Source: Pseudomonas flavescens
Lineage (GTDB): Bacteria > Pseudomonadota > Gammaproteobacteria > Pseudomonadales > Pseudomonadaceae
Length of the DNA stretch: 64,000 nt
Assembly (NCBI RefSeq): GCF_013408425.1
Contig: NZ_JACBYV010000001.1
Coordinates: 4,278,001-4,342,000 of the forward strand
Reading direction: 5' to 3'
Of this stretch, positions 25,299 to 62,473 are shown in pieces (the first letter of the stretch is position 1; every line of letters starts with the position of its first letter). Below the pieces are notes generated by a model. That model ran no database searches, was not told the DNA's origin, and saw only the letters and a program-made list of their open reading frames with translations. A program made the translations under genes and the position numbers.

Positions 25299-25378
25299 GA
25301 CACTGGGGCCTGCAGGGACGACCAAGCTTGATCTGCGGTGATCACGCAAGCCGTGGGGTTGAGTTATCCACAACGAGA

Positions 25379-45614: not shown

Positions 45615-48600
45615 TCTGGCGATCCCCTTTCGGGTCATAGAACACGGAGCTGACGATTTCGGCCTCGATCACGCTGCCATCGACCAGCGGCGCGAAGACC
45701 CGCTCGCCGATGCGCTTGAGGCCGCCCCTGACCAGGGCCATGGCGAAGGAATGGCCCATCGCGGCGCTCATGTAGCTGGAGGTGACGTGGCCAACCATGG
45801 TCATCGGAATCTGCTGCTTGGGGTCGAACACCAGTTGCGCGCCTTCTGGCAGCACCTTGTTCGGATCCACCGGCTTGAGGCCGACCAGTTGCTTGCGGTC
45901 TTCCTTGAGGGTGTCTTCGCGATTCATGCCGCGCCAGCCGATCCAGGAGAACGGCTTGGTACGCCCGACGCACCAGCCCATGTTCAGGTCGTCCGGGGTG
46001 ACCGAGCCATCGGTATCCTGGCCGACGATGATGAAGCCCTTCTCGGCACGCAGCACGTGCATGGTCTCGGTGCCGTATGGAGTCAGGCCGTGCTTCTGGC
46101 CGGCGGCGATGATCTTCTCCCACACCCCCAGGGCATAGTTGGCCTGGACGTTGACTTCGTAGCTCAGCTCACCGGTGAAGGAGATCCGGAATACGCGCGC
46201 CGGCACGCCGCCGACGTTGCCTTCCTTCCAGGTCATGAACGGGAAGGCGTCCTTGTCCAGGTCGATATCGGTGACTTCGGCCAGCAGCTTGCGGCTGCTG
46301 GGGCCGGACAGGGTCATGGTCGCCCAGTGGTCAGTGACCGAGGTGAAGTACACCTTCAGCTCCGGCCATTCGGTCTGATGATAGATCTCCAGCCATTCCA
46401 TCACGCGGGCAGCGCCGCCAGTGGTGGTGGTCATGACGAAATGGTTGTCGGCCAGGCAGGCCGTCACGCCGTCGTCGAAGACCATGCCGTCTTCCTTGCA
46501 CATCAGGCCGTAGCGGGCCTTGCCCACGTCCAGCTTGGTCCAGGCGTTGGTGTACACGCGGTTGAGGAACTCGCGCGCATCCGGGCCCTGAATGTCGATC
46601 TTGCCCAGGGTCGAGGCGTCGAGAATGCCCACCGCGTTACGCACGGCCAGGCACTCGCGGGCCACGGCGGCGTGCAGGTCTTCACCTTTTTTCGGGAAGT
46701 ACCAGGGGCGCTTCCACTGGCCGACGTCCTCGAACTCGGCGCCGTTTTCCAGGTGCCATTTCTGCATGGCGGTGTAGCGCTTGGGCTCGAACAGATCGCC
46801 ACAATGACGGCCGGCGATGGCGCCGAAGGTCACCGGGGTGTAGTTCGGGCGGAACATGGTGGTGCCCATCTCACTGACGCTGATGCCCAGCGAACGGGCG
46901 GCGATGGCCAGGCCGTTGATGTTGCCCAGCTTGCCCTGGTCGGTACCGAAGCCCAGCGCGGTGTAGCGTTTGACGTGCTCGACCGACTCGAAGCCCTCCC
47001 GCGTGGCCAGCTCGATACCGGCGGCGGTGACGTCGTTCTGCTGATCGACGAACTGCTTCGGTGCACGCGCGGTGTTCTTGTCGTGCGGCACCTGGAACAG
47101 CGCAATCGACGCTTCCTCGATGCGCTTCTCGGCCTTCGGCAGCGTGCCGCTCACCGGCTGGAAGCCCACCTCGGCGGCCGCCTTGGCACCGGCTTCGAAA
47201 CCATCGGCGAGGCTGTCGCCCATGCCGAACACACCGTTCACGGCACCGGCGCAATGACGTTTCTGGAAACCGTCACCCGGCACGAAAGCGAGGATGTCTT
47301 CACGCCAGACCGGACGACCGCCAAGGTGCGACGCCAGGTGCACCACCGGGCTGTAGCCGCCGGAGCTGACGATCAGGTCGCAGTCGAGGGTCTCGCCCGG
47401 GCTGGTGACCTTGTGCCTGGCAGCGTCGATGGCGCAGATGCGCGCACCGGTGACACGCTTGCTGCCACGCGCCTCGACCACAGCGCTGCCGGTGAGCACG
47501 CGCACGCCACGTCGGCGCGCTTCCTCGACCCAGCTGCCGCGCGGGTTGCTGCGCGCGTCCGCCACGGCCACCACCTGGCGACCGGCGTCGAGCCAGTCCA
47601 GCACCACGCGGTAGGCGTAATCGTTGTTGGTCGACAGCACCAGCTTCTGCCCGGGCGCCACGCCATAACGGCGCACGTAGGTCGACACGGCATCGGCCAG
47701 CATGTTGCCGGGCACGTCGTTGTTGGCATACACCAGCGGGCGCTCGTGGGCGCCGGTGGCCAGCACCACGCGGCCAGCACGCACACGGTGCAGGCGCTGG
47801 CGCGGTTGGCCGATTGGCGCGACTTCGCCGAGGTGGTCGGTGAGGCGCTGGTGAATGGTGAGGAAGTTGTGGTCGTGGTAACCGTTGACCGTGGCACGCG
47901 CCAACAGGGTCACTTCCGGCATGGCCTGCAGCTCGGCGATGGCCTTGGCGGCCCACTCGGCAGCCGGCTTGTCGTCGAGCATCTCGCGGGTAGAGAGCAG
48001 GCTGCCACCGAGCTCTTCCTGTTCATCGGCGAGAATGACCCGGGCGCCACTGCGGCCGGCGGCCAGGGCTGCAGCCAGCCCGGCAGGGCCGGCACCGACC
48101 ACCAGCACGTCGCAGTGCTGGTTCAGGTAGTCGTAGATATCCGGGTCGTTCTCTTTTGGCGCGCGGCCGAGGCCTGCAGCCTTGCGGATGTACTTCTCGT
48201 ACGTCAGCCAGAGGTTCTGCGGGTACATGAAGGTCTTGTAGTAGAAACCGGGCGGCATCATGCCGCCGCCGACCTTGCCGAGAATCCCCATCAGGTCGGT
48301 GTTGACGCTCGGCCAGCCATTGGTGCTGGTGGCCGTCAGGTTCGCGTACAGCGCCTGCTGAGTTGCCCGCACGTTGGGGATCTGCGCCGCTTCGGCGGAA
48401 CCGATCTGCAGCACGGCATTGGGCTCTTCGGCGCCGGCGGCAACGATGCCGCGCGGGCGCGAGTACTTGAAGCTGCGGCCGATCACGTCGACGCCGTTGG
48501 CCAGCAACGCGGCGGCCAGGGTGTCGCCGGCATAACCCTGATAGGTCTGGCCGTTGAAGCTGAAGGTCAGCGGCTGGCTGCGATCGATGCGGCCACCCTG

Positions 48601-48624
48601 GGAAAGACGATTGACCTGGCTCAT
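45607..48624 (-). CDS. soxA: Sarcosine oxidase alpha subunit
   Basis: A 1005-residue subunit. The N-terminal part has an NAD-binding fold (LVVGAGPAGLAAALAAGRSG near residue 175) and a 2Fe-2S-like N-terminal domain that begins with the TFSFNGQTYQGYAGDTLAAA region. The C-terminal about 400 residues form a GcvT-like tetrahydrofolate domain that receives the one-carbon unit as 5,10-methylene-THF. It overlaps soxD by 4 bp and soxG by 8 bp. Confidence 0.96.
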   Translation of the reverse strand: MSQVNRLSQGGRIDRSQPLTFSFNGQTYQGYAGDTLAAALLANGVDVIGRSFKYSRPRGIVAAGAEEPNAVLQIGSAEAAQIPNVRATQQALYANLTATSTNGWPSVNTDLMGILGKVGGGMMPPGFYYKTFMYPQNLWLTYEKYIRKAAGLGRAPKENDPDIYDYLNQHCDVLVVGAGPAGLAAALAAGRSGARVILADEQEELGGSLLSTREMLDDKPAAEWAAKAIAELQAMPEVTLLARATVNGYHDHNFLTIHQRLTDHLGEVAPIGQPRQRLHRVRAGRVVLATGAHERPLVYANNDVPGNMLADAVSTYVRRYGVAPGQKLVLSTNNDYAYRVVLDWLDAGRQVVAVADARSNPRGSWVEEARRRGVRVLTGSAVVEARGSKRVTGARICAIDAARHKVTSPGETLDCDLIVSSGGYSPVVHLASHLGGRPVWREDILAFVPGDGFQKRHCAGAVNGVFGMGDSLADGFEAGAKAAAEVGFQPVSGTLPKAEKRIEEASIALFQVPHDKNTARAPKQFVDQQNDVTAAGIELATREGFESVEHVKRYTALGFGTDQGKLGNINGLAIAARSLGISVSEMGTTMFRPNYTPVTFGAIAGRHCGDLFEPKRYTAMQKWHLENGAEFEDVGQWKRPWYFPKKGEDLHAAVARECLAVRNAVGILDASTLGKIDIQGPDAREFLNRVYTNAWTKLDVGKARYGLMCKEDGMVFDDGVTACLADNHFVMTTTTGGAARVMEWLEIYHQTEWPELKVYFTSVTDHWATMTLSGPSSRKLLAEVTDIDLDKDAFPFMTWKEGNVGGVPARVFRISFTGELSYEVNVQANYALGVWEKIIAAGQKHGLTPYGTETMHVLRAEKGFIIVGQDTDGSVTPDDLNMGWCVGRTKPFSWIGWRGMNREDTLKEDRKQLVGLKPVDPNKVLPEGAQLVFDPKQQIPMTMVGHVTSSYMSAAMGHSFAMALVRGGLKRIGERVFAPLVDGSVIEAEIVSSVFYDPKGDRQNV

Positions 48625-48947
48625 GCCGTTACTCCTTGGTCGACGGCCTTCTTCTCGGCGAGCGAAGCCTCAGTGACGCTGGGGCGCTCGCCAATCTTGT
48701 AGGTTTCGAGAATCTCGTAGCTCACCGTGTGGCGGGTGACGTTGAAGTACTGACGGCAGCCTGCTGCGTGAATCCACAGCTCGTGGTGGATGCCACGCGG
48801 GTTGTCGCGGAAGAACAGGTACTCGCCCCACTGCGCATCGGTGCAGGCATTCGGATCCAGCGGGCGGGGAATGTGCGCCTGGCCGCCAGCGTGGAATTCT
48901 TCTTCGGAACGCAGTTCGCCACAGTGAGGGCAGAAGATGTGCAGCAT
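48621..48947 (-). CDS. soxD: Sarcosine oxidase delta subunit
   Basis: A 108-residue zinc-binding subunit. MLHIFCPHCGELRSEEEF supplies Cys6 and Cys9, and WIHAAGCRQYF supplies His60 and Cys64. It sits between soxB and soxA, and its stop overlaps the soxA start. Confidence 0.96.
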   Translation of the reverse strand: MLHIFCPHCGELRSEEEFHAGGQAHIPRPLDPNACTDAQWGEYLFFRDNPRGIHHELWIHAAGCRQYFNVTRHTVSYEILETYKIGERPSVTEASLAEKKAVDQGVTA

Positions 48948-49002
48948 GTTCGGTACCTCCAGAAAACCATCGTCCCTCTCTCAGCGAGAGAGGGCGCCAA
49001 AA

Positions 49003-50253
49003 TCAGTGCGCCACACCGGCTGCGCCGTGCTCGTCGATCAGCGCACCGTTGTGGAAGCGCTCGATGGAGAAGGCCTTGGCCAGCGGATGCATCTCGCCCT
49101 TGGCCAGGCTGGCCGCGAACACGTTGCCCGAGCCTGGCGTGGCCTTGAAGCCACCGGTGCCCCAGCCGCAGTTGAAGAACAGGTTCTTCACCGGGGTCTT
49201 GGCGATGATCGGGCAGGCGTCCGGCGTGGTGTCGACGATGCCGCCCCACTGACGGTTCATGCGCACCCGCGAGAGCACCGGGAACATCTCGACGATGGCC
49301 TGCAGGGTGTGTTCGATGGTCGGATAGGAACCGCGCTGGCCGTAGCCGTTGTAGCCGTCAATCCCGGCGCCGATGACCAAGTCGCCCTTGTCCGACTGGC
49401 TGATGTAACCGTGCACGGCGTTGGACATGATCACCGTGTCGATGATGGGTTTGATCGGCTCGGAGACCAGCGCCTGCAGCGGGTGCGATTCCAGCGGCAG
49501 GCGGAAGCCGGCGAGCTTGGCCAGGTGACCGGAGTTACCGGCGGCGACCACGCCGACGCGCTTGGCGCCGATGAAGCCCTTGCTGGTTTCCACGCCGATC
49601 ACCGCGCCGTCCTGCTTGCGAAAGCCAATGACTTCGGTCTGCTGGATCAGGTCGACGCCCAGGGCGTCGGCGGCGCGGGCGAAACCCCAGGCCACGGCGT
49701 CGTGACGGGCGACGCCACCGCGGCGCTGCAACGAGGCACCGAGGACCGGGTAACGGGTGTTCTTCGAGCAATCGAGGTAGGGAATCATCTCCGCCACCTG
49801 CTTGGCATCGACCACCTCGCCATCGATCCCATTGAGGCGGTTGGCGCTGACGCGGCGCTCGATGTCACGCATGTCCTGCAAGGTGTGGCCGAGATTGAAC
49901 ACACCGCGCTGGGAAAACATGACGTTGTAGTTCAGGTCTTGCGATAGACCTTCCCACAACTTCATCGCGTGCTCGTAGAGGTGCGCGGACTCGTCCCACA
50001 AATAGTTGGAACGCACGATGGTGGTGTTACGTGCGGTGTTGCCACCGCCCAGCCAGCCCTTCTCGACCACGGCGACGTTCTTCACGCCGAACTCCTTGGC
50101 CAGGTAGTAGGCTGTGGCCAGGCCATGCCCGCCACCGCCGACGATGATCACGTCATACACCGGTTTGGGAGTCGGATTGCGCCACATGCGTTGCCAGTTT
50201 TCGTGGTGACTGAAGGAATGCTTGAACAGGCCGAAGCCGGAATAGCGCTGCAT
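49003..50253 (-). CDS. soxB: Sarcosine oxidase beta subunit
   Basis: A 416-residue flavoprotein subunit that oxidises the N-methyl group of sarcosine. N-terminal MQRYSGFGLFKHSFSHHENW and the FAD motif IVGGGGHGLATAYYLAKEFG are typical. VEKGWLGGGNTARNTTIVRS follows. It carries FAD and covalent FMN at its interface with the alpha subunit, as known for the family. It is the first sox gene, after glyA. Confidence 0.97.
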   Translation of the reverse strand: MQRYSGFGLFKHSFSHHENWQRMWRNPTPKPVYDVIIVGGGGHGLATAYYLAKEFGVKNVAVVEKGWLGGGNTARNTTIVRSNYLWDESAHLYEHAMKLWEGLSQDLNYNVMFSQRGVFNLGHTLQDMRDIERRVSANRLNGIDGEVVDAKQVAEMIPYLDCSKNTRYPVLGASLQRRGGVARHDAVAWGFARAADALGVDLIQQTEVIGFRKQDGAVIGVETSKGFIGAKRVGVVAAGNSGHLAKLAGFRLPLESHPLQALVSEPIKPIIDTVIMSNAVHGYISQSDKGDLVIGAGIDGYNGYGQRGSYPTIEHTLQAIVEMFPVLSRVRMNRQWGGIVDTTPDACPIIAKTPVKNLFFNCGWGTGGFKATPGSGNVFAASLAKGEMHPLAKAFSIERFHNGALIDEHGAAGVAH

Positions 50254-50296
50254 GGGAGACTCCTGAATTCTGGGTGTTGCCGTCTGGCTGGCGGCC

Positions 50297-50365
50297 CGTA
50301 GGGTGGATCACGCTTTACCGATCCACCGATGCGCGGTGGAAGGAAACAGCGCCTCCCACCCTACG
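50297..50365. repeat. REP-type element between glyA and soxB
   Basis: The outer arms CGTAGGGTGG and CCACCCTACG are exact inverse complements (50297-50306 and 50356-50365). An inner hairpin GGTGGATC / GATCCACC lies within. It could attenuate transcription from glyA into soxB. Confidence 0.75.
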
Positions 50366-50367
50366 AA

Positions 50368-51621
<1,254 letters not shown>

Positions 51622-51789
51622 CACGTATCTCCCCGAGGCGCCTGAAGGCGCCGCATCTGGCTCGGTTGCTCGATATGAGTCTTGTTGCAGCGATGGTATG
51701 ACTCGCCCTCGAGAACCAGATGCCTATGCACGCCACGGGAGATTGCGTTTGCGACATGACCGAGTGTCGCAATTGCACATGCCGCACAC

Positions 51790-52527
51790 TCAGATGAAGC
51801 GCAGTGCGACCAGCGCGAGAAAGTGCCCGGGATAGAACAGATAGGCCCAGCGTCGTACCGGTGGTACCGGGAATGGCGGACGGATGCGCAACAGCAGCAG
51901 ACCGACCAGCGGGGCGAACAGGCAGATGGCGAGCACGCTCCAGGCGAACGGGTCGCCCCGGGCGGCGTCGCGATAGAAAGGCGCCCAGTAGTTGGCCGCC
52001 AGGCAGCAGACCATCGGCAGCAGCCAGGCGCCATAAGGCTTGCGCAGCGCCAGCAGGAACGCCGCCGGCAATACCGCGCCGAAAGCGCCGAACATCAGCC
52101 ACTCATGGCCGAACACGGCGATCAACAGCGCCGCCCCACCCAGCCAGCAGGCCTGGGGCTGCGGGCGCTGCACCGCATTGGCGATCAGCAGGCCGAGCAC
52201 CAGGGTCGGCAGCACGTTGAGCGATTCCGCCGAGGGCACCAGCAGCCGGTAGGGCCACTCCGATAGCAGCGAGAACAGCAGCAACCAGCCGAGATAACTC
52301 AGCGATACGGCGCCGGAATCACCCACTCTCGGTCGCGCAACGTTGGCAGCAATGGCCAGACAGAACAATGGAAAGGCCAGACGACCAGGTACGTAGAGGA
52401 AATACAGGGAGGGCCAGACATGGCGAAGGTGATCGATCAGCATGGTCAGCAGCGCCAGCCATTTGATCAGATCGAGGGCCGCGTCACGGCCGAAAGGCAT
52501 TGGCTGAGCAAGTGATGCTGGAGGCAT
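51790..52527 (-). CDS. TraX family membrane protein
   Basis: A 245-residue polytopic inner-membrane protein of the TraX family (PF05857; F-plasmid TraX acetylates pilin). ALDLIKWLALLTMLIDHLRH is the family's N-terminal motif, and the C-terminus RRWAYLFYPGHFLALVALR matches its end block. About seven to eight hydrophobic segments are visible. There is no conjugation gene nearby, so it is a chromosomal acyltransferase-like member of unknown substrate. The start is uncertain: ATG at 52527 or 52500, with no good ribosome-binding site. Confidence 0.85.
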   Translation of the reverse strand: MPPASLAQPMPFGRDAALDLIKWLALLTMLIDHLRHVWPSLYFLYVPGRLAFPLFCLAIAANVARPRVGDSGAVSLSYLGWLLLFSLLSEWPYRLLVPSAESLNVLPTLVLGLLIANAVQRPQPQACWLGGAALLIAVFGHEWLMFGAFGAVLPAAFLLALRKPYGAWLLPMVCCLAANYWAPFYRDAARGDPFAWSVLAICLFAPLVGLLLLRIRPPFPVPPVRRWAYLFYPGHFLALVALRFI

Positions 52528-52634
52528 GTGCACGCGTCACGCTGGGATATGAGGCTGCACGGTAGAGGCTCTGGCTGCCTCGACGCAAATCAGAAGGCGG
52601 CGCAGGGCTAAACCCTGCGCCGCCGGTTCGAGGC

Positions 52635-52934
52635 TTACTGCAGTTTGGTGTTGCAGCTGCTCGAGGCCGTGACCAAGCGCTGCTGCAGCGCGGCATCCGG
52701 CGGCACCTGCTTGCTCATTTCGGCCATTTCGGCCTCACTGAACTCCTCGCTGACCTTGGTCGCAGCGCAGTCGCAGAACGCCGTCAGCTTCTCTTGCGAG
52801 TGGCCGGACTGGGCGCCTTTCACGCACTCCTGCACGAAGGTCGACTTGGCTTCGGGGGACCAGGGTTCGGCTGCCACGGCCGGCAAGGCGAAGGCGAGCG
52901 GTGCGAAAAGTGCGATCAGATGACGGTAGCTCAT
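52635..52934 (-). CDS. Small exported protein with four cysteines
   Basis: A 99-residue hypothetical protein. It has a clear signal peptide (MSYRHLIALFAPLAFALPAVAA, cleavage after AVAA), giving a mature periplasmic protein of about 77 residues. The mature part contains four Cys, including CDCAATKVSEEFSEAEMAEM, and looks all-helical. It may carry disulfides or bind a ligand; I do not recognise a named family. The ATG at 52934 follows CAGGAG. It lies about 100 bp upstream of the TraX gene on the same strand. Confidence 0.75.
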   Translation of the reverse strand: MSYRHLIALFAPLAFALPAVAAEPWSPEAKSTFVQECVKGAQSGHSQEKLTAFCDCAATKVSEEFSEAEMAEMSKQVPPDAALQQRLVTASSSCNTKLQ

Positions 52935-53135
52935 GGTGGGCTCCTGTAGCTTGGAATCGGCGAGTCCTTGATTACGACTCTCTGCTTTGTGAGCCCACAG
53001 ACTGCCGTGAGTTCAGAATGATTGCCCTCGACGAGCCCTGAACAATATGTCGCGCCAGCGAGTTCTAAGGCTGGCCAAGGCGGGCTAAAGTAGCGGCATA
53101 CGCCCGGTTGGGGCGAAGCAGACAAGGATTTTCCA

Positions 53136-54176
53136 ATGCCCGACAACTCCCAGCAATTCGCCAGCGACAACTACTCGGGCATCTGCCCCGAGGCCTGGGA
53201 AGCCATGGCAGAAGCCAATCAGGGCCACCAGCGCGCCTATGGCGACGACGAATGGACGGCCCGCGCCGCCGACCACTTCCGCAGCCTGTTCGAAACCGAC
53301 TGCGACGTGTTCTTCGCCTTCAACGGCACCGCCGCCAACTCCCTGGCGCTCTCCGCGCTGTGCCAGAGCTACCACAGCGTGATCTGCTCGGAGACCGCCC
53401 ACGTCGAGACCGACGAGTGCGGCGCGCCGGAATTCTTCTCCAACGGCTCCAAGCTGCTTACCGCCCATACCGAGCAGGGCAAACTGACGCCCGCGTCGAT
53501 CCGCGAGATCGCGCTAAAGCGCAAGGACATCCACTACCCCAAACCCCGCGTGGTGACCCTCACCCAGGCCACCGAAGTCGGCACCGTTTACAGCCCCGAA
53601 GAAATCCGCGCGATCAGCCAGACCTGCGAGGAACTCGGCCTGCACCTGCACATGGACGGCGCGCGCTTCTCCAATGCTTGCGCCTTCCTCGGCTGCAGCC
53701 CGGCGGACCTGACCTGGAAAGCCGGTGTCGACGTGCTCTGCTTCGGCGGCACCAAGAACGGCATGGCAGTCGGCGAAGCGATCCTGTTCTTCAACCGCGA
53801 GCTGGCCGAAGACTTCGACTACCGCTGCAAACAGGCCGGGCAACTCGCCTCGAAGATGCGCTACCTGTCAGCACCCTGGGTCGGCATCCTGCAGAACGAT
53901 GCCTGGCTGCGTTATGCCAAGCACGCCAACCACTGTGCACAACTGCTCGCCAGTCTGGTGGAAGACGTGCCCGGCGTGAGCCTGATGTTCCCGGTGCAGG
54001 CCAACGGCGTGTTCCTGCAGATGTCCGAACCGGCCCTCGCCGCCCTGACCGCCCGCGGCTGGCGCTTCTACACCTTCATCGGTGCCGGTGGCGCACGCTT
54101 CATGTGTTCCTGGGACACCGAACAAGCCCGCGTCCGTCAACTGGCCGCGGATATCCGCGAAGTGATGGCCGGCTGA
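53136..54176 (+). CDS. ltaE: Low-specificity L-threonine aldolase
   Basis: A 346-residue PLP enzyme cleaving L-threonine and allo-threonine to glycine and acetaldehyde. The PLP lysine is in CFGGTKNGMAVGEA near residue 207. N-terminal FASDNYSGICPEAWEAM and HMDGARFSNA are family blocks. It feeds the same glycine pool as the sox and glyA genes. It ends just before a terminator-like hairpin and the DnaA-box region. Confidence 0.95.
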   Translation: MPDNSQQFASDNYSGICPEAWEAMAEANQGHQRAYGDDEWTARAADHFRSLFETDCDVFFAFNGTAANSLALSALCQSYHSVICSETAHVETDECGAPEFFSNGSKLLTAHTEQGKLTPASIREIALKRKDIHYPKPRVVTLTQATEVGTVYSPEEIRAISQTCEELGLHLHMDGARFSNACAFLGCSPADLTWKAGVDVLCFGGTKNGMAVGEAILFFNRELAEDFDYRCKQAGQLASKMRYLSAPWVGILQNDAWLRYAKHANHCAQLLASLVEDVPGVSLMFPVQANGVFLQMSEPALAALTARGWRFYTFIGAGGARFMCSWDTEQARVRQLAADIREVMAG

Positions 54177-54195
54177 GCGTCGGCTTGATACGCAA

Positions 54196-54224
54196 GGTGG
54201 ATCGAGGCGCTCGCCTCATCCACC
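54196..54224 (+). other. Terminator-like/REP hairpin after ltaE
   Basis: GGTGGATCGAGGC and GCCTCATCCACC pair over 12 bp with one bulged C and the loop GCTC. There is no T-run. It uses the GGTGGAT motif seen in the repeat at 50302. Confidence 0.55.
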
Positions 54225-54239
54225 CACCCTCCTCGCAAA

Positions 54240-55400
54240 GCCTCCAACACATCTCAGGCACTCTGTGGATAAAAGCCACGGCCTGTCGCTGCGCGGGAAT
54301 CAGCACGGCTGCGCTGTAGTTTGCGGGCGACAGCATACTCGGCGGCGTAACGTCTGCTGAAAGCAGCCATTTCAGGCAACTGGGGATAAACATCGACACC
54401 ATCCCCAGATCACGTGGACGATGGTGTGGATAAGCTGTCGGCAACAGGCTACACGCCAGGCAGCTCGGCGCCTCTGGCGATTCGTACAAAAAACGTTCTA
54501 TTTCAATGAGTTGCCCTGCGGGTTACGCACATTCACTGTGCAGCAACCCTTTCACAAGCTGTGCATATGTAGCTGCAGCTCGCATACCACGGCGCCTACA
54601 GAGAGCTGATCTTTTTTTGATCAGCCCACTTGACGATCGATTCATCCACAGCACTTTTGCAGCGTTGCCGGCACATTGTGGACAGCCGTCCCCACAATCC
54701 GTGGATGATGACGGGGATAAACTGTAGGTAAACCGCTACACACCCCGCTACCAGAGGGCTGCAGCGATTCGGTTGAAAAACGTTCGATTTCAACAGGTTG
54801 GAAAGTTATCTACACACAGAAGCTGTGCGCTTACCTGTGCATAAGGTGTTCAGACCGGGCTGCACGCCACCGAATACGGCGCCCTCAGCGCAATGATCAT
54901 TTTCTGAACAGGGGCCCGAGCCAGGGCGACGGCGCTGCCGATGACGCCCGATAAAGAGCGGGGCTGTGTACAGATGACTGATCCAGCGACCCGCTTTCCC
55001 CCAAAGTCCGTGGATCAAGCTGTGAATAACCTGTCGCCACTCGCCTACAGGCCAGTATCCACGCTGCTTGCAGGCCAGCGATCAAAAAACGAACGATTTC
55101 ATGAGGTTGACGTATCCACCAAGGCCGCCGCCAACCTGAGCAGGGCTGCAAGTTATTCATAATAGTTGTGCATACACTTGTGGATAACCTGTCCAGCGAT
55201 GGCCAGGCGTCAACGCCTGCGAAGCCTGTCGGTAATTGGCGCATTTTCGATCGCCTCCCGCGTCGCCACGCCAGGTGAGGCCTGGCAGTTGACACCGCCA
55301 GGTGATCTGCAGAAGCAGGGCAGCGATCAACCAGCAAGCTTGCGCACAATTACTGTGTGCCCGGCTGTGGATAAGCTGTTCGACACCGCCTGCAGCCCAG
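54240..55400. other. DnaA-box cluster with three tandem ~300-bp repeats; no credible gene
   Basis: Exact TGTGGATAA (reverse complement of the DnaA box TTATCCACA) occurs at 54264, 54425, 55179 and 55366. TGTGCATAA (54836) and TGTGAATAA (55021) fit TTATNCACA. One-mismatch boxes occur at 54381, 54560, 54642 and 54806. All six full boxes point the same way, and four are followed within two bases by CTGT. A unit starting with box-CTGT and ending past an AT-rich 26-mer is repeated at about 54425, 54712 and 55021. Frames through the region are short and have no recognisable product. By analogy it is a DnaA-titrating (datA-like), DnaA-reactivating or origin-like locus; this role is inferred. Confidence 0.65.
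54488..55109 (+). repeat. Three diverged copies of an AT-rich 26-bp repeat
   Basis: Copies lie at 54488-54513, 54775-54800 and 55084-55109. The common pattern is AAAAACG(TT/AA)C(T/G)ATTTCA followed by a GTTG end. The spacings of 287 and 309 bp equal the spacings of the associated DnaA-box blocks, so these are parts of a larger tandem repeat. Confidence 0.85.
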
Positions 55401-55453
55401 GCGCTGCGTGGCCCAGGCAAAGCTGTCTACTTTATGACCAATGACTGGAGCGG

Positions 55454-56554
55454 TCAGTAATCGATGCTCACGTCGTTACGTGGCACGCTGCAGCAGGACA
55501 GGATGTATCCCTCGGCCACGTCCTCGTCGGTGATCCCGCCGTTGTGCTCCATATCCACATCGCCGGCCGTCTTCAGTACCTTGCAGGTTCCGCAAATCCC
55601 CATCCCGCATGCCTTGGGGATATGCAGCCCGAGCTTCGCCGCCGCCGCGTGCACCGTCTCGCCAGGGCCGACCTGAATGCTCTTGCCGGTGCTGGTGAAT
55701 GCCACCTGATTGAGATCGGCAGCCGGCACGTCCGGCGCATCGGCAGCCTGCTCGGCCAGTTCCTTGACCTCCTCGCGCACGTCTGCCGGTACCGGGCCGA
55801 AGGCCTCCTCGTGGTAGCGGCTCATATCGAAGCCCTTGGCCTCGAGCAGCCGCTTGACCGCCGCCATGTAGGGCGTAGGCCCGCAGCAGAAGATCTCCCG
55901 CTGCAGATAGTCCGGCGCCATCAGCTGCAACATGGGCTCGTTGAGGTAGCCGCGATAGCCCGACCAGGCTTCGCCCAGACCATGCTTCTCGCAGATCACG
56001 TGCAGATTGAAGTTGTTGATCCGCGCCGCCATGTGCTCCAGCTCACGGTGGTAGATGATGTCCTTGGGCGAGCGCGCGCTGTGCACGAAGACCATGTCGA
56101 CGTTGGCATTGGTGTCGTAGAACCAGCGGGCCATCGACATCACCGGGGTGATGCCCACCCCGCCACTGAGAAACAGCACCTTGTCCGCCGGAAAATCGAT
56201 GGCATTGAACAGCCCGACCGGACCATGCACCGCCAGCTCCTGGCCTTCGGACAGGTTGTCGTGCAACCAGTTGGACACCTTGCCGCCCGGTACCCGCTTG
56301 ATGGTGATGGAGAAGCTGTAGGGCACCGAGGGTGAGCTGGAGATGGTGTAGGAGCGCATCACCGGCCGGCCTTCGATCTCCAGCTCCAGGGTGACGAACT
56401 GACCCGGCTTGAAGAAGAACAGCACCGGCTGGTCGGCCATGAAGCAGAAGGTGCGCACATCCCATGTTTCCTGGATGACCTTGACGCAGCGCACCACGTG
56501 GCGGCCATTGCTCCAGGTCTGGGTAGTGACGGGATAGAGGAATTCGTTCGACAT
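55454..56554 (-). CDS. gbcB: Glycine betaine monooxygenase reductase subunit
   Basis: A 366-residue ferredoxin-NADP reductase-type partner of GbcA. The FAD motif MRSYTISSSPSVPYSFSITI, the NAD region SGGVGITPVMSMARWFY and a C-terminal 2Fe-2S domain with CGMGICGTCKV plus a final Cys pair are visible. It passes electrons to the Rieske oxygenase GbcA, which demethylates glycine betaine to dimethylglycine. The ATG at 56554 gives the family length. It diverges from gbcA across 356 bp. Confidence 0.96.
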   Translation of the reverse strand: MSNEFLYPVTTQTWSNGRHVVRCVKVIQETWDVRTFCFMADQPVLFFFKPGQFVTLELEIEGRPVMRSYTISSSPSVPYSFSITIKRVPGGKVSNWLHDNLSEGQELAVHGPVGLFNAIDFPADKVLFLSGGVGITPVMSMARWFYDTNANVDMVFVHSARSPKDIIYHRELEHMAARINNFNLHVICEKHGLGEAWSGYRGYLNEPMLQLMAPDYLQREIFCCGPTPYMAAVKRLLEAKGFDMSRYHEEAFGPVPADVREEVKELAEQAADAPDVPAADLNQVAFTSTGKSIQVGPGETVHAAAAKLGLHIPKACGMGICGTCKVLKTAGDVDMEHNGGITDEDVAEGYILSCCSVPRNDVSIDY

Positions 56555-56910
56555 GGTCGTTTCTCTCGCGCACGCAGGCCGCTCACCGGCCCTGTCTCTG
56601 CCGCGATTGTGCGCAACGCACCTGTCGTTCATTTACCTGCCAGCGACATCGGCATGCTAACGGCGACCTGCCCCGTAGACACTGGCCTACCGAGTCGGGA
56701 AATGATTCGGGCATGTCGCCCATGGATAAGGTTCACGCCGCGCCCGGCTCCACACTCGCCCCCAGCCGAACAGGATAAGAGCGCCAGCCGCAGCCCCCTC
56801 TGAAAAGCGCCAATCGGCAGGCGCCCAGGGGTGCGATGCGCCACCTTGCGTACCACCGCAATAGCCACTTTCACGGCCAGCGCAGCGCGCTCGCCACGAG
56901 GAGTTCTCCG
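56555..56910. other. Divergent gbcB-gbcA intergenic region
   Basis: 356 bp between two divergent starts, presumably holding both promoters. In P. aeruginosa the AraC-family activator GbdR controls these genes; I could not fix a GbdR site by eye. No small gene is seen. Confidence 0.4.
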
Positions 56911-58203
56911 ATGACCGTCACCTCCACACTGAGCCTTGGCGACCCGCTGGAACCGGCACGCGCCGCAGCCGCCGACATGCTGCAGAACCGCGAGCGCACC
57001 TTTTCCCTGCCACAGCCGTTCTATAACGACGAACGCATGTTCCAGCTCGACATGCAGGAGATCTTCCACAAGGAATGGCTGATCGCCGGCATGACCTGCG
57101 AGATCCCCACCAAGGGTAATTACCTGACGCTGCAGATCGGCAACAACCCGATCATCGTCATCCGCGGTGCCGAGGGCAGCGTGCATGCTTTCCACAACGT
57201 CTGCAGGCATCGCGGCTCGCGCCTGTGCACCAGCGACAAGGGCAAGGTGGCCAAGCTGGTCTGCCCCTACCATCAGTGGACCTACGAGCTGGATGGCCGC
57301 CTGCTGTTCGCCGGCACCGAAATGGGCGCCGACTTCGACCTCAAGGACTACAACCTCAAGCCGGTGAGCTGCAAGACCGCTGGCGGCTACATCTTCATCT
57401 CCCTGGCCGAGAACCCACCGGCCATCGACGAATTCCTCGCCACCCTGTCGCACTACATGGAACCGTACGACATGGAGAACGCCAAGGTGGCGGTGCAGAC
57501 CAACCTGTACGAGAAGGCCAACTGGAAACTGGTGCTGGAAAACAACCGCGAGTGCTACCACTGCAACGGTTCGCACCCGGAGCTGCTCAACACCCTGCTG
57601 GAATGGGACGACACCAACGACCCGCGTGCCAGCCAGGCCTTCAAGGATCACGTTGCCGAGTCCGCGGCCAAGTGGGAAGCCGAGAAGATCCCTTACCTGC
57701 ACGCGGGTTTCGGCCTGCGTAACCGCATCGTGCGCATGCCCCTGCTCAAAGGCACCGTGTCCATGACCATGGACGGCAAGCAGGGCAGCCAGAAGCTGAT
57801 GGGCCGCATCCAGAACCCCGACCTGGGCTCGATGCGCATCCTCCACCTGCCGCACTCGTGGAACCACTGCATGGGCGATCACATGATCGTCTTCACCGTG
57901 TGGCCGATCAGTGCCCAGGAGACCATGGTCACCACCAAATGGCTGGTGCACAAGGATGCCGTCGAAGGCGTCGACTACGACGTAGCCCGCCTGCGCCAGG
58001 TATGGGATGCCACCAACGACCAGGATCGCCGCCTGGCCGAAGAGAACCAGCGCGGCATCAACTCCACCGCCTACCAGCCCGGCCCCTACTCGAAGACCTA
58101 CGAGTTCGGCGTGGTCAATTTCATCGACTGGTACAGCGGCCGCATGCTCAACAACCTGGGCGCCGCGCCTGCGCCCTACCTGCGCGACGTCAAGGCGCAG
58201 TAA
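56911..58203 (+). CDS. gbcA: Glycine betaine monooxygenase oxygenase subunit
   Basis: A 430-residue Rieske non-haem iron oxygenase demethylating glycine betaine to dimethylglycine. The Rieske ligands are Cys98 and His100 (CRHRG) and Cys118 and His121 (CPYHQW). The mononuclear iron site lies in ENNRECYHCNGSHPEL. The ATG at 56911 follows GAGGAG; codons upstream are leader. It pairs with gbcB and starts the pathway that soxBDAG and glyA complete. Confidence 0.97.
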   Translation: MTVTSTLSLGDPLEPARAAAADMLQNRERTFSLPQPFYNDERMFQLDMQEIFHKEWLIAGMTCEIPTKGNYLTLQIGNNPIIVIRGAEGSVHAFHNVCRHRGSRLCTSDKGKVAKLVCPYHQWTYELDGRLLFAGTEMGADFDLKDYNLKPVSCKTAGGYIFISLAENPPAIDEFLATLSHYMEPYDMENAKVAVQTNLYEKANWKLVLENNRECYHCNGSHPELLNTLLEWDDTNDPRASQAFKDHVAESAAKWEAEKIPYLHAGFGLRNRIVRMPLLKGTVSMTMDGKQGSQKLMGRIQNPDLGSMRILHLPHSWNHCMGDHMIVFTVWPISAQETMVTTKWLVHKDAVEGVDYDVARLRQVWDATNDQDRRLAEENQRGINSTAYQPGPYSKTYEFGVVNFIDWYSGRMLNNLGAAPAPYLRDVKAQ

Positions 58204-58241
58204 AAACAAGGGCTGCAAGAAGGCGAAAGCGGACCTTCGAT

Positions 58242-58305
58242 TTGGTGGGCTAAAGCCCACCCTACAGCCGCGCATCTAACAGTAGGGTGGGCTTCAGCCC
58301 ACCAA
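58242..58305. repeat. REPIN-like inverted pair of REP sequences
   Basis: Two 24-bp REP units (58242-58265 and 58282-58305) lie head to head with one mismatch between them. Each is itself a short palindrome built on GGTGGGCT / AGCCCACC. The unit is the same as in the tandem array at 62510. Nothing else is recognised from 58306 to 58516 apart from the ribosome-binding site of the next gene. Confidence 0.85.
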
Positions 58306-58516
58306 TTGGTGCCCGACTACGAACGGCGGCTTTCGCCTTTAACCTACCAATGCTCCGCGGGGCCTCTCCCTGCCCGTTCGGTTTATGAACGGAATGTTTC
58401 ACAGCATTTCACGCCCGTAAGCGAAACAATCGAGGCAGTCCCGGCCATCGGCACACACGCGGTTTTCTCTGCGAAGCAGCCCGGCCACGCGCTTCCACTT
58501 TCGCGAGGAAACCACC

Positions 58517-61500
58517 GTGAGCGTGAAACCACTGAGCAAAGGCCCCAACGATCAGGCAGGCGGTGACGGCCTGCGTTTCGACAACGTCATGCGTCTGAGC
58601 CTGAAGGCCGAAGGTAATCCCAAGCCCAAGGAAGACCGCGTCGCTACCGACAACGAGACGTGGCCGCCAGTGGACAAGACCCAGGTCGAAGCGCCCAAGG
58701 ATGGAAAGATCCGTTACCAGTTGGATGGTCAGGGCGTGGTGGTGGACCGCTCGGTCAACCCCGAGCTGTACAAGTTCCTGCTCAACCTGCATGCCCTCAA
58801 CCAGTCCCCCGAGCAGAAGGCCCAGGTGGTCGCGGCGATGGGCGACGACCACGCTATCGCCGACCGCAATACCGAGGTGCAGAAGGCGGGCGACTACACC
58901 CAGTTCAAGTGGCAGGGCAATCTCGAAGACACCGAGGTGATCACCTACATCACCACCAACGGCGAAACCGTCAGCGTCTCCAAAGCACTGACCCCAGAGC
59001 TGTTCGCTTCGGTGCAGCAGATCGGCCTGTCACGCTATACCCTCGAGCAGCGCGTGGCCGATGGCCGTGAAGTCGCCGGTGCCGACACCTATGTGGCCGA
59101 GCACGACATTGCCGTCTGGGGTAGCCCGGACGAGTTCGGCAACGGGGTCATCCAGTTCGAGACCAAGGACGGCAAGAAGTACGTCGTATCCGAACACGAA
59201 AACAAGGAAATGTACGACCGGGTCGCCGGGATGTGGAGTGACCACGTCAAAGGCGGCGACTCGATCCAGGACCTTCGTGACAAGTACGACCTGCCCGACC
59301 TCGATGCACTGGATCTGCTCGGCCAGAGCAGCGGCGAGAAGGCCAACAAGGACGACAAGGAAGAGATGACGGTGGTCGAGCTGGCCACCAAGAACCTGCT
59401 CGACAAGTACAAGAAGCTCATCGACGACGGCAAGGTCGACAAGGACAGCGACGTCTACAAGCTGGTCAAGGCCATCGAGGCCAAGGCAGCCATGGAAAGC
59501 GGGCACCGCATCACCCCCTACATCGAAGACCCACGCGGTGGCGACACCACCTGGCGGAAGTTCGACACCGATGGCGAGACGCTGAGCGAAGAGGATATGC
59601 AGGACATCCTCAACGGCAACTCGGTGGATAAGCTGCTCAGCGAAATGTTCACCAGCGGCGACGGCGAGAAGGACAAGATCGGCAAGGAATTCCAGGCCGA
59701 GCTGGACAGTGCCATCGAGAAAATCAGCGGCGAGGACAAGACCAAGCTGGCCGACGAGATCTACGAAACCCTGACCAGTCTGGACTTCGTCGAATACCTC
59801 GCGGACATGAAGAAACAGGGGCTCGACAGCGAGGGCCAATCGGAAGTCGCCCGCCTCGCTTCGAGCCTCGAACTGCTCGACCCGGAGCGCGCCCGCAAGG
59901 CCGAGTCGGAGCTCAAGCAGAACAGTATCCTGGTCGAGATCGATACCCTGGTCGGCGACCCTGGAGCGATCCCCGACGAATACAAGGAGATGGCCTACAA
60001 GGACATGGGGGCGCTGATAAAGACCGTGCTCAAGTCCGCCGACATCCCTCGCCGCGTCCAGGACAGCATCGAGAAGTTCTACAACGAACTGCTCAACGAC
60101 AAGACCAAGATGGCCGACTTCGTCGAGCTCAGCAATCAGCTCAACAACGGCACCATCAGCCAGGCTGATTTCGACCAGCAGCTACAAACCAAATACATCC
60201 CGGCGGAAGTCAGCAAGGATGACTTCACCAGGGCCATAGGCACGCTCAACCAGTACGGCGTACTTGGTACCATCTCCGCGTTCGGCTCGCTGGGCGGCGC
60301 GATTTACATGCTTTCGGCCAAGAACGGTCAACTGTCCGACGAGCCATTGGAACGCCTGGCCATCGCCAAGGATTTCATCACCTTCCTCAGTGGCGGTGCG
60401 CAGTTCGAAAAGACCAAGATCTTCGACAAGTTCACCAAGACCAATACCGCCGAACTGCTGGGCCTGAGCAAAACGCTGCCGGAAATCTGGGGCAAGGAAA
60501 ATGGCACGATCGGCAAGACGATCGAAGGCTTCCTGCGCGAACGCGGCATCTCCGGTATCCCCGACGCGGTAGAGAGCCGCGCCAACAGCGTCATCGAGCT
60601 CGGCTCGCTGAATGGTGGTGGCGGCGGCAACGTACTCGATCAGGTCAGGCTTTCGGCTGAAGCCGCAGGCATCGGCCCCCTGGACGACGACGGCATTCGC
60701 GCCCTGCTGGACGACGTCGTCCAGCGTGCCGGCGGCAATCCACCCGCAGACTACTCGCGCTACAACAGCCTCAATCAGCTCGCCAACGAGCAGAACCTCG
60801 TGATAACCGAGGACACCATCAATCAGAGCATCGCCGAAAGACAGGCCGCGGCGGGTCTGGGGCAGGTGCCCGACGATGCTTCGATTCTCGAGTTCGCCGA
60901 TCACCTGGAAAACGCAGCCAGTCGTCCGCTGCCGCCCTCCACGACATCCTCAGGCTATTCGGTCTACGAAGATGCGGTGGAGTTCTTCGAAGAGCGCAAT
61001 ATCGCTCCACCCAGTGTCGAATCCTTCGAGCGGGTGATGAGTGAGCGTGCCTCGGCGGCACCCGGTGCAGACGTGGAGCTGGATCGTCAGGCCATCGAAC
61101 AGATGTACGAGCAGGACAACCGCCCACCACCCGCAGCGGACGTGCTCGATGACGCCATCGAACCGATCAACGATGCCATCCGCAACAATCCTCCGGCGCA
61201 GAGCGTCGTCGACAACGCGACCGTTCGCGACGCCCTGAGCCCCAACGGCGCGGTAGACGTGCCGTCCATCAAGCCCGGCCTGGCGGCAAAGATTGGCGGC
61301 ACGCTGACCAAGGTGTTGGGCGTGGCACCGGACATTCTCAGCGTTGCGGATATCGTCATGGGCGGCTACGCGATCAAGGACGCCATCGCCAACAACAGCG
61401 ATATGGGCAAGGCGGCTGGTGCCCTGCAGATCATCAGCGGCGTGGCGGGCACAACGGCCGGCGTGATCGGCACCGCCGGCCTGTTCGCCAGCATCGGCGC

Positions 61501-62473
61501 GCTGGCTGGAGCGACCGGCCCGCTGTTTCTGATCACCGCGGGCCTCGGGCTGATCGCCGGCATTATCGGCATCTTCGTCGACCACGAGAAAAAACAGAAA
61601 GCCACCGACAAGGAAGGCCAGTGGTTCAAGGATCTCGCCGAACTCGGCCTGACCCAGGAAGACTGGGGCGACAAGCTCGAGTACGCGCGCTACAGCTTCT
61701 ACGAGTACGAAGGCCGCGACGCCCCGGCAGGGCAGAGCATCTACGACTACCAGAAGGATGAATGGGAGCACTTCAAGGAAACGCCCCAGGAAGGTGGCTC
61801 ATCCATCAACCGTCTGGATGACGACATGCACCTGGCCAAGTTCGACAAGGACTTCTATCAGGACAATCGCGAAGTCATGCACACCATCCGCGAGCGCTGG
61901 GACGACTGGAACGGCAAGGACGCCATCGTCAGCAAGAAGGACCTGGAAAAGATCGCCAACGGCGACGGCAGCGACGAAGAGAAGGCGGCCGCACGCTTCC
62001 TGCTCGACAACAGCGAGTTCTTCGACCAGCTCGATACCCAGTGGGGCAAGGGCGGCCAGGATGGCAAGGTAAGCACCAACGATCTCAATACCTGGCTGAA
62101 GATGGTCGGCGCCCATGAGGACCAGTACGACCGAGCCTTCTTCGACGAGCACAAGGGCATCATCGACACCATCCGTGATCGCTGGGACGACTGGAACGGC
62201 AAGGACGCCATCGTCAGCAAGAAAGACCTGGAGAAGATCGCCAACGGCGATGGCAGCGACGCCGAGAAGGAGGCGGCGCGCTTCCTGCTCGACAATCAGG
62301 GCTTCTTCGACCAGCTCGACAACCTGGCCAAGAACGACAAACGTGACGGCAAGATCAGTACCGGCGACCTGGAAACCTGGTTGAAAGCCATCGGCGTGGA
62401 GAAAACCGACAAGAGCGACCTGACCTACAACCCCAACGAAAACACACCGGCCTGGCGGGTGATGCGCGGTTGA
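58517..62473 (+). CDS. HrpK/HrpF/NolX-like type III translocator-related protein (orphan)
   Basis: A 1318-residue acidic protein without an N-terminal signal peptide, starting at a GTG behind GCGAGGA. A long charged helical region is followed by a Gly/Pro-rich linker (about 720-930) and two hydrophobic Gly/Ala-rich stretches at about 965-1022. Next comes a GQWFKDLAELGLTQEDWGDK segment that I associate with HrpK-type proteins. The C-terminus has two near-identical blocks 95 residues apart (about 1117-1180 and 1212-1275) with EF-hand-like loops such as NDKRDGKISTGD. P. syringae HrpK1, Xanthomonas HrpF and NolX are putative type III translocators but shorter. No secretion genes, chaperone or hrp box are seen here. 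Family call moderate, function uncertain. Confidence 0.65.
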   Translation: MSVKPLSKGPNDQAGGDGLRFDNVMRLSLKAEGNPKPKEDRVATDNETWPPVDKTQVEAPKDGKIRYQLDGQGVVVDRSVNPELYKFLLNLHALNQSPEQKAQVVAAMGDDHAIADRNTEVQKAGDYTQFKWQGNLEDTEVITYITTNGETVSVSKALTPELFASVQQIGLSRYTLEQRVADGREVAGADTYVAEHDIAVWGSPDEFGNGVIQFETKDGKKYVVSEHENKEMYDRVAGMWSDHVKGGDSIQDLRDKYDLPDLDALDLLGQSSGEKANKDDKEEMTVVELATKNLLDKYKKLIDDGKVDKDSDVYKLVKAIEAKAAMESGHRITPYIEDPRGGDTTWRKFDTDGETLSEEDMQDILNGNSVDKLLSEMFTSGDGEKDKIGKEFQAELDSAIEKISGEDKTKLADEIYETLTSLDFVEYLADMKKQGLDSEGQSEVARLASSLELLDPERARKAESELKQNSILVEIDTLVGDPGAIPDEYKEMAYKDMGALIKTVLKSADIPRRVQDSIEKFYNELLNDKTKMADFVELSNQLNNGTISQADFDQQLQTKYIPAEVSKDDFTRAIGTLNQYGVLGTISAFGSLGGAIYMLSAKNGQLSDEPLERLAIAKDFITFLSGGAQFEKTKIFDKFTKTNTAELLGLSKTLPEIWGKENGTIGKTIEGFLRERGISGIPDAVESRANSVIELGSLNGGGGGNVLDQVRLSAEAAGIGPLDDDGIRALLDDVVQRAGGNPPADYSRYNSLNQLANEQNLVITEDTINQSIAERQAAAGLGQVPDDASILEFADHLENAASRPLPPSTTSSGYSVYEDAVEFFEERNIAPPSVESFERVMSERASAAPGADVELDRQAIEQMYEQDNRPPPAADVLDDAIEPINDAIRNNPPAQSVVDNATVRDALSPNGAVDVPSIKPGLAAKIGGTLTKVLGVAPDILSVADIVMGGYAIKDAIANNSDMGKAAGALQIISGVAGTTAGVIGTAGLFASIGALAGATGPLFLITAGLGLIAGIIGIFVDHEKKQKATDKEGQWFKDLAELGLTQEDWGDKLEYARYSFYEYEGRDAPAGQSIYDYQKDEWEHFKETPQEGGSSINRLDDDMHLAKFDKDFYQDNREVMHTIRERWDDWNGKDAIVSKKDLEKIANGDGSDEEKAAARFLLDNSEFFDQLDTQWGKGGQDGKVSTNDLNTWLKMVGAHEDQYDRAFFDEHKGIIDTIRDRWDDWNGKDAIVSKKDLEKIANGDGSDAEKEAARFLLDNQGFFDQLDNLAKNDKRDGKISTGDLETWLKAIGVEKTDKSDLTYNPNENTPAWRVMRG

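Follow-up and report, generated by a model that had tools for sequence, protein, structure and literature searches.

The window analysed here is a stretch of 64 kb (C1:4278001-4342000) from a host genome that consists of a single contig of 5,951,877 bp. Two genes in it converge on a non-coding gap of 1277 bp: ltaE (53136..54176, plus strand), which matches the Pfam beta-eliminating lyase family and keeps the gene name given in the initial annotation, its sole NCBIfam match being below the cut-off, and gbcB (55454..56632, minus strand), assigned from its open reading frame and an NCBIfam match as the glycine betaine monooxygenase reductase. The gap holds an array of DnaA boxes at genome coordinates 4332264-4333374 and, since both genes converge on it, the array is upstream of neither. 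The dnaA gene is found at 4,632,012, about 300 kb away, in line with the initial annotation, which had noted no dnaA near the array; this distance is 5% of the chromosome from oriC and puts the array at 0.10 of the arm as measured from oriC. Those neighbouring ORFs that could be named are metabolic, and by eye no rep, par or integrase gene was recognised among the ORFs of at least 100 aa overlapping positions 48000-62000. Searches for structured RNA gave no Rfam match up to E = 1 between 53900 and 55800, and no tRNA or tmRNA was detected in the whole window. Elsewhere in the window, a 1318-aa ORF (58517-62473) carries two near-identical repeats close to its C-terminus.

Scanning the window located exact copies of TTATCCACA at 54264, 54425, 55179 and 55366, together with TTATTCACA at 55021 and TTATGCACA at 54836. 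All six are on the minus strand, so that the four exact and two further full boxes previously claimed in a single orientation are indeed present; the CTGT said to follow four of the six is also there and reads, on the plus strand, as one G or C and then CTGT. Positions 54240-55400 contain nine of the window's 16 box matches with at most one mismatch, and 100 shuffles of the entire 64 kb yielded a mean of 3.9 and a maximum of 11 such matches. The number of exact boxes expected in 1160 bp is 0.017 at the density of the host genome and 0.068 at the density found within 0.5 Mb of oriC, corresponding to Poisson probabilities of about 3e-9 and 9e-7, respectively, for four or more exact boxes, which bears out the excess over chance that had been reported. 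Genome-wide, exact TTATCCACA occurs 87 times, against 11 for a reversed control pattern; 80 of the 87 copies are less than 1 Mb from oriC, and the left arm has none beyond that distance. Box counts in three more closed genomes of the genus are 122, 156 and 133 (12, 19 and 20 for the control). A solitary exact TTATCCACA is also present at window positions 25364-25372 on the plus strand.

The boxes had been described as lying inside tandem repeats. Tandem Repeats Finder reported none over the array, and what remains of this description is a set of degenerate direct repeats with irregular spacing, the intervals of repeat family D1 being 287, 124, 185 and 345 bp. The array is made of six units with a common layout, in which a box is followed after 3 bp by a weaker box in the same direction and, 5 bp further, by a weak box in inverted orientation. 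All six are on the minus strand, and the bit scores given with them come from R1, a sequence-only model trained on 52 units, taken from 22 genomes of the genus, that include all six window units. Unit 1 (55337..55382, 46 nt with flanks) consists of TTATCCACA, GGGCACACA and inverted TTGCGCACA (37.5 bits), and unit 2 (55150..55195) of TTATCCACA, GTATGCACA and inverted TTATTCATA (28.8 bits), its boxes matching TTWTNCACA at 9, 8 and 8 of 9 positions. Unit 3 (54992..55037) is formed by TTATTCACA, TGATCCACG and inverted TTTCCCCCA (35.3 bits), and unit 4 (54807..54852), which overlaps TTATCTACA at 54806 on the plus strand, by TTATGCACA, AAGCGCACA and inverted CTACACACA (29.3 bits). The weak unit 5 (54683..54728) combines TTATCCCCG, TCATCCACG and inverted CCGTCCCCA (24.5 bits), and unit 6 (54396..54441) combines TTATCCACA, TCGTCCACG and inverted CCATCCCCA (29.8 bits). 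Over the six units the strong box matches TTWTNCACA at 7-9 of 9 positions, and the middle and inverted boxes each at 5-8. Two minus-strand boxes, the exact TTATCCACA at 54264..54272 and TTATCCCCA at 54381..54389, have neither a second nor a third box.

The 3-bp and 5-bp gaps were first spotted by eye and offset scans were run afterwards, using as anchors eight strong or near-strong boxes of the window defined by a pattern that was itself chosen after the units had been spotted. Of the 40 offsets scanned, gap 3 gave the highest score for the direct box and offset 17 (3+9+5) for the inverted one; neither value was reached in any of 20,000 shuffles. Both boxes are present at six of the eight anchors, the other two being outside the units. 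Four further sets of sites were scanned in the same way: 47 sites from arrays near gbcA, 30 from arrays near yigZ, seven from other arrays of the host genome and eight from the ltaE-gbcB interval of relatives. Offset 17 was the best position for the inverted box in all four sets, and gap 3 the best for the direct box in three, coming second to gap 16 in the gbcA set. Around 107 solitary boxes neither gap 3 nor offset 17 stands out.

Candidate sites for IHF lie between some of the units, on the minus strand. A consensus scan found CAACTCATTGAAA (54486..54513), with one mismatch and a T-tract following it; its TTGAAATAG core is kept in seven of eight aligned genomes (it is changed in G422) and its T-tract is broken in G384. 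A second site, CAACCTGTTGAAA (54773..54800), also with one mismatch and a T-tract, is located between units 4 and 5 and belongs to repeat D3, of which a third and poorer copy, again an A-tract next to an IHF-like sequence, is found at 55080..55109. Counted with a tolerance of one mismatch, IHF-like sites occur three times in the gap, in one case within a stretch that overlaps unit 2, compared with 0.43 in shuffled sequences. The IHF consensus used for these counts is close to the one quoted in PMC8682772.

We used the gap as a query against 398 genomes of the genus. Long matches at the same place were obtained in G192 (82%), G386, G001, G410, G422 and G175, and three shorter matches in G384. 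All seven of these relatives have boxes between ltaE and gbcB, and after filtering we counted six units in G192, three in G001, four in G386, four in G410, four in G422, five in G175 and three in G384. In the five relatives compared column by column (G192 was left out as too close, and G384 was also left out), identity to the window is 75.6% in unit columns versus 46.7% in the others, a difference to be read with the provisos that columns are not independent and that the aligner may favour units. We also inspected 28 further ltaE loci of the genus, for which the interval to gbcB was complete in 12 and incomplete in 16. None of the 28 has a TTWTNCACA box downstream of ltaE and none gives a match to R1, which indicates that an array in precisely this position is a feature of the window's lineage. 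Conservation of the boxes across the interval in relatives, put forward earlier as a check, was found in seven relatives and fails in the 12 complete and 16 incomplete intervals, a mixed outcome; that most Pseudomonas examined lack an array between ltaE and gbcB counts against the DARS-like reading given below. Five of the 12 genomes with a complete, box-free interval, together with six other mapped genomes, have an array elsewhere in the same gene cluster.

The three-box layout is also that of two known E. coli loci. In MG1655 the DARS1 boxes are at 208 (+), 222 (-) and 234 (-) of locus L117 and the DARS2 boxes at 1136 (+), 1150 (-) and 1162 (-) of locus L115. Read on the minus strand, both give box III, 3 bp, box II, 5 bp and inverted box I, the arrangement of the Pseudomonas unit, whose strongest box is the outer one, box III. 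This agrees with the published description of DARS1 and DARS2, whose box spacing is identical and whose box I is opposite to boxes II and III (PMC5742627). The core boxes of DARS1 and DARS2 match the DnaA consensus at 8-9 of 9 positions. An inverted box at +5 scores 8/9 in both loci, and the weakness of box I in the window (5-8 of 9) counts against the DARS reading on this point. At the same offset datA scores 5/9 and the main double boxes of polA, nrdA, purH and mioC 3/9; among other E. coli pairs, two in the DARS2 region score 6 and 4, the gap-2 polA pair 5, and the gap-2 nrdA and purH pairs 3. E. coli DnaA is reported to prefer, in vivo, box pairs 2-3 bp apart (PMC11317965), and the direct pair with a 3-bp gap is common to the array units and these E. 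coli double boxes, the inverted third box being what the main pairs at polA, nrdA, purH and mioC lack.

Model R1 was also run on 80.8 kb comprising the E. coli control loci and the window. It matched DARS1 at 15.2 bits (in two overlapping loci) and the DARS2 core at 13.7 bits, although these matches, of 13.7-15.2 bits, cover model positions 13-45 only, which counts against the comparison. Further matches in this set were two weaker places of the window besides its units and another stretch of DARS2, matched in part at 11.4 bits over positions 4-23 and not including box I. No match up to E = 5 was obtained at datA, polA, nrdA, purH or oriC-mioC. In the host genome R1 had no match at oriC, the only one in 4622500-4637000 being weak (10.6 bits) and about 5 kb from oriC. 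Like the array, DARS1 and DARS2 are intergenic and non-coding. The regulatory region of DARS2 has IHF and Fis sites, and the array has candidate IHF sites near its units. The array differs from them in having six units, in occurring with other arrays in the same genome and in being nearer to oriC: on the E. coli arms datA is at about 0.20, DARS2 at about 0.41 and DARS1 at about 0.66, so that a position of 0.10 is nearer to that of datA and counts against DARS. Clusters of DnaA boxes outside oriC are also known from Bacillus subtilis and Streptomyces, where oriC-proximal clusters restrain initiation (cited in PMC5742627).

Similar arrays are widespread in Pseudomonas. In 11 of 11 mapped genomes (loci L094-L103 and L062), chosen for having an array or a strict double box in the cluster and so not giving a rate, a co-oriented array lies no more than about 2.2 kb from gbcA or from a gene of the same cluster that we take to encode an electron-transfer-flavoprotein-like protein. 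As side observations, ten of these 11 arrays (all except L098) have an opposite-oriented TTTTCCACA 47-58 bp from a box, and a tract resembling TGATCAAAAAA is repeated between their boxes. Of the 15 closed genomes in which ltaE is present, 11 have a strict double box no further than 12.3 kb from it. A second common site, represented by 15 mutually matching loci, has on one side a YigZ/IMPACT-like gene, which matches Pfam UPF0029 but stays below the NCBIfam cut-offs, and on the other an ABC-transporter gene, these neighbours being read in L048 only. The host genome itself has three more arrays, beside azurin (L033, 1658-1904), creB (L035, 7485-7896) and gbdR (L037, 2727-2963), the last gene matching a Pseudomonas-type NCBIfam model; by ORF lists the azurin-side and gbdR-side arrays are between convergent genes.

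The 16 closed genomes together have 72 strict double boxes, where the reversed control gives 4, and 62 of the 72 are in the origin-proximal third of the arms, a figure computed with rounded genome sizes for seven of the 16 genomes; exact sizes were used for the positions of R1 loci. R1 has matches in all 16 closed genomes, 13 of which supplied training units. Of its 202 matches, 150 were listed; 125 of these form 47 clusters, and the 150 define 72 loci. The loci are placed in the origin-proximal third in 61 cases (median 0.23 of the arm), in the middle third in five and in the last in six. Four of these 11 distal loci, from the same 150 matches, belong to G029, two of them being beyond 2 Mb. 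A single strong unit is found about 0.78-0.95 Mb from oriC at L104 2902-2947 and, in similar form, in G036, G010, G032 and G029, with no second unit within 1 kb among the matches listed. The orientation of units relative to fork movement, judged by eye in a few genomes, is not constant.

At E <=1e-5, R1 has a match in 118 of 119 Pseudomonas genomes and more than one in 114 of these; excluding 18 training genomes the count is 100 of 101, and the one genome without a match is a 350-contig assembly. At E <=1e-3 it matches 178 of 274 genomes of the class Gammaproteobacteria with the host genome included, these E-values being rough. Since the box pair alone could lead R1, we checked the class by searching for the pair without requiring box I, which gave 38 matches in 29 genomes (the host genome excluded), while the reversed control gave 2. 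In 15 of the 38 pairs the +5 position carries an inverted box scoring 7/9 or better, each of the other offsets from 0 to 16 having at most one, and 23 pairs are without it; the 15 come from 15 genomes, two of one genus and nearly identical. The strict three-box pattern was found in at least 117 stretches of named contigs against about 0.5 expected, an estimate assuming equal base use. Among the 80 matches listed, 50 are from Pseudomonas or Stutzerimonas and the rest mostly from other gamma- and betaproteobacteria, with three from MAGs titled Alphaproteobacteria.

Distances between neighbouring units cluster near 150, 161, 172, 182, 193, 203 and 213 bp, about one helical turn apart, a pattern that is suggestive of looping. 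A first set of 120 spacings excluded G029, G036, one pair of G046 and one weak pair of L163; the restored set has 134 spacings with 31 distinct values in the range 140-215 and gives the same p = 0.0018, for a range that was chosen after viewing the histogram and for genomes many of which are related. The spacings of both sets derive in part from the 150 of 202 R1 matches listed. When all distinct values of the first set are taken, the best period is 11.4 (R 0.38), with R 0.15 at 10.5. The spacings in the window (124, 158, 185, 187 and 287) are off the peaks of the other genomes, which counts against the DARS-like reading.

We interpret the array, with its boxes, their geometry, their conservation and their match to DARS, as probably a multi-copy DARS-like locus that regulates DnaA through six units resembling the DARS core. 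Binding of DnaA to the units is very likely, and binding of IHF to the IHF-like sites is likely. Whether the array acts by nucleotide exchange, that is reactivation, as opposed to plain titration or ATP hydrolysis, is a matter on which we judge the chances to be about even. The suggestion that the locus titrates or reactivates DnaA has therefore gained support, and the geometry favours a reactivating site of the DARS type over datA. Plain titration, with arrays serving as high-affinity sinks for DnaA near oriC and the geometry only raising affinity, is the main rival; as the full explanation it strikes us as rather unlikely, and it may hold alongside reactivation. It is favoured by the 80 of 87 exact boxes of the host genome within 1 Mb of oriC, by the mostly ori-proximal arrays of the 16 closed genomes (among the 150 of 202 matches listed) and by E. 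coli, whose boxes are enriched near oriC and whose chromosome is described as titrating DnaA (PMC12371093). Against it, a sink would not require an inverted box in a fixed position, and yet one at +5 is found repeatedly in the class and is absent from the main E. coli promoter double boxes that we examined. A datA-like role, in which head-to-tail DnaA oligomers and IHF would promote ATP hydrolysis and restrain re-initiation, is improbable in our view. The array has in common with datA its closeness to oriC, at 5% of the chromosome, its co-oriented strong boxes and IHF-like sites between some of them; datA itself is described as having its essential boxes in one direction, with a single IHF site between them, at an ori-proximal position (PMC5742627). 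Each of the six units nevertheless adds an inverted box to these one-direction boxes, and datA has neither a good one at +5 (5/9) nor a match to R1.

The two remaining proposals concern origins and promoters. A secondary or relic origin, or the remnant of an integrated replicon, was raised in the initial annotation, and clustered DnaA boxes with IHF-like sites do resemble an origin. Also, between 48001 and 56000 the sign of the GC skew (4-kb bins) flips at the locus, the value being +0.037 before about 52 kb and -0.052 after it. At an origin the skew switches from negative to positive. The change seen here is in the opposite sense, and further sign changes occur elsewhere in the window. The array also lacks an AT-rich unwinding stretch, its lowest G+C over 100 bp being 0.46 versus 0.29 at the real oriC, where R1 has no match. 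The metabolic neighbours, with no replicon gene recognised by eye among the neighbouring ORFs, the sequence constraint and the cousins found at several chromosomal loci per genome in nearly all Pseudomonas searched likewise speak against a remnant. On base composition, skew sense, neighbours and cousins we rejected both the secondary origin and the remnant, to which we assign almost no probability. DnaA-dependent transcriptional regulation of ltaE or gbcB would be compatible with the role of DnaA as a transcription factor in E. coli (PMC11317965). We regard such promoter control as very unlikely, since ltaE and gbcB run towards each other and have the array downstream of them; moreover, related arrays adjoin different genes in other species.

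For the DARS-like reading the following mechanism can be proposed. DnaA would bind the strong box and the weaker direct box 3 bp on in head-to-tail fashion, and a third DnaA would occupy the inverted box 5 bp beyond, facing head-to-head the DnaA on the weaker direct box. In E. coli DARS, head-to-head contact of the DnaA molecules on boxes I and II promotes ADP release (PMC8682772, PMC5742627). Bends of the IHF type between the units may join them into one complex. Most likely the array would promote ADP-to-ATP exchange on DnaA and also hold a share of the DnaA pool. Because it is replicated early, its dose would double soon after initiation. A broader and more tentative proposal, which we consider possible but would not call probable, is that a belt of multi-unit DARS arrays flanks oriC on both sides, with helically phased units that act together to recharge and hold DnaA, and is the genus's main initiation timer.

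As far as the literature found goes, DARS and datA control of DnaA has been worked out in E. coli and its close kin. Conservation of DARS2 in beta- and gammaproteobacteria close to E. coli is already in print (PMC5742627, PMC8682772), so the kind of site is known. In the titles and opening abstract lines searched, which lie mostly outside subscription papers, we found no description of multi-unit arrays, of a belt flanking the origin or of their spread in Pseudomonas. If the belt reading is true, early replication and dose would set the timing of initiation, and the arrays would be a repeated-unit counterpart of E. coli DARS2 and datA. If the arrays act as DARS and datA do, Pseudomonas would have several candidate control loci, most with at least two units and all at known places, and whether reactivation, titration or both time initiation becomes a question that deletion can address. 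The three-box rule recurs across the class and provides an easy sequence-based check for DARS-like sites in genomes with no named ones.
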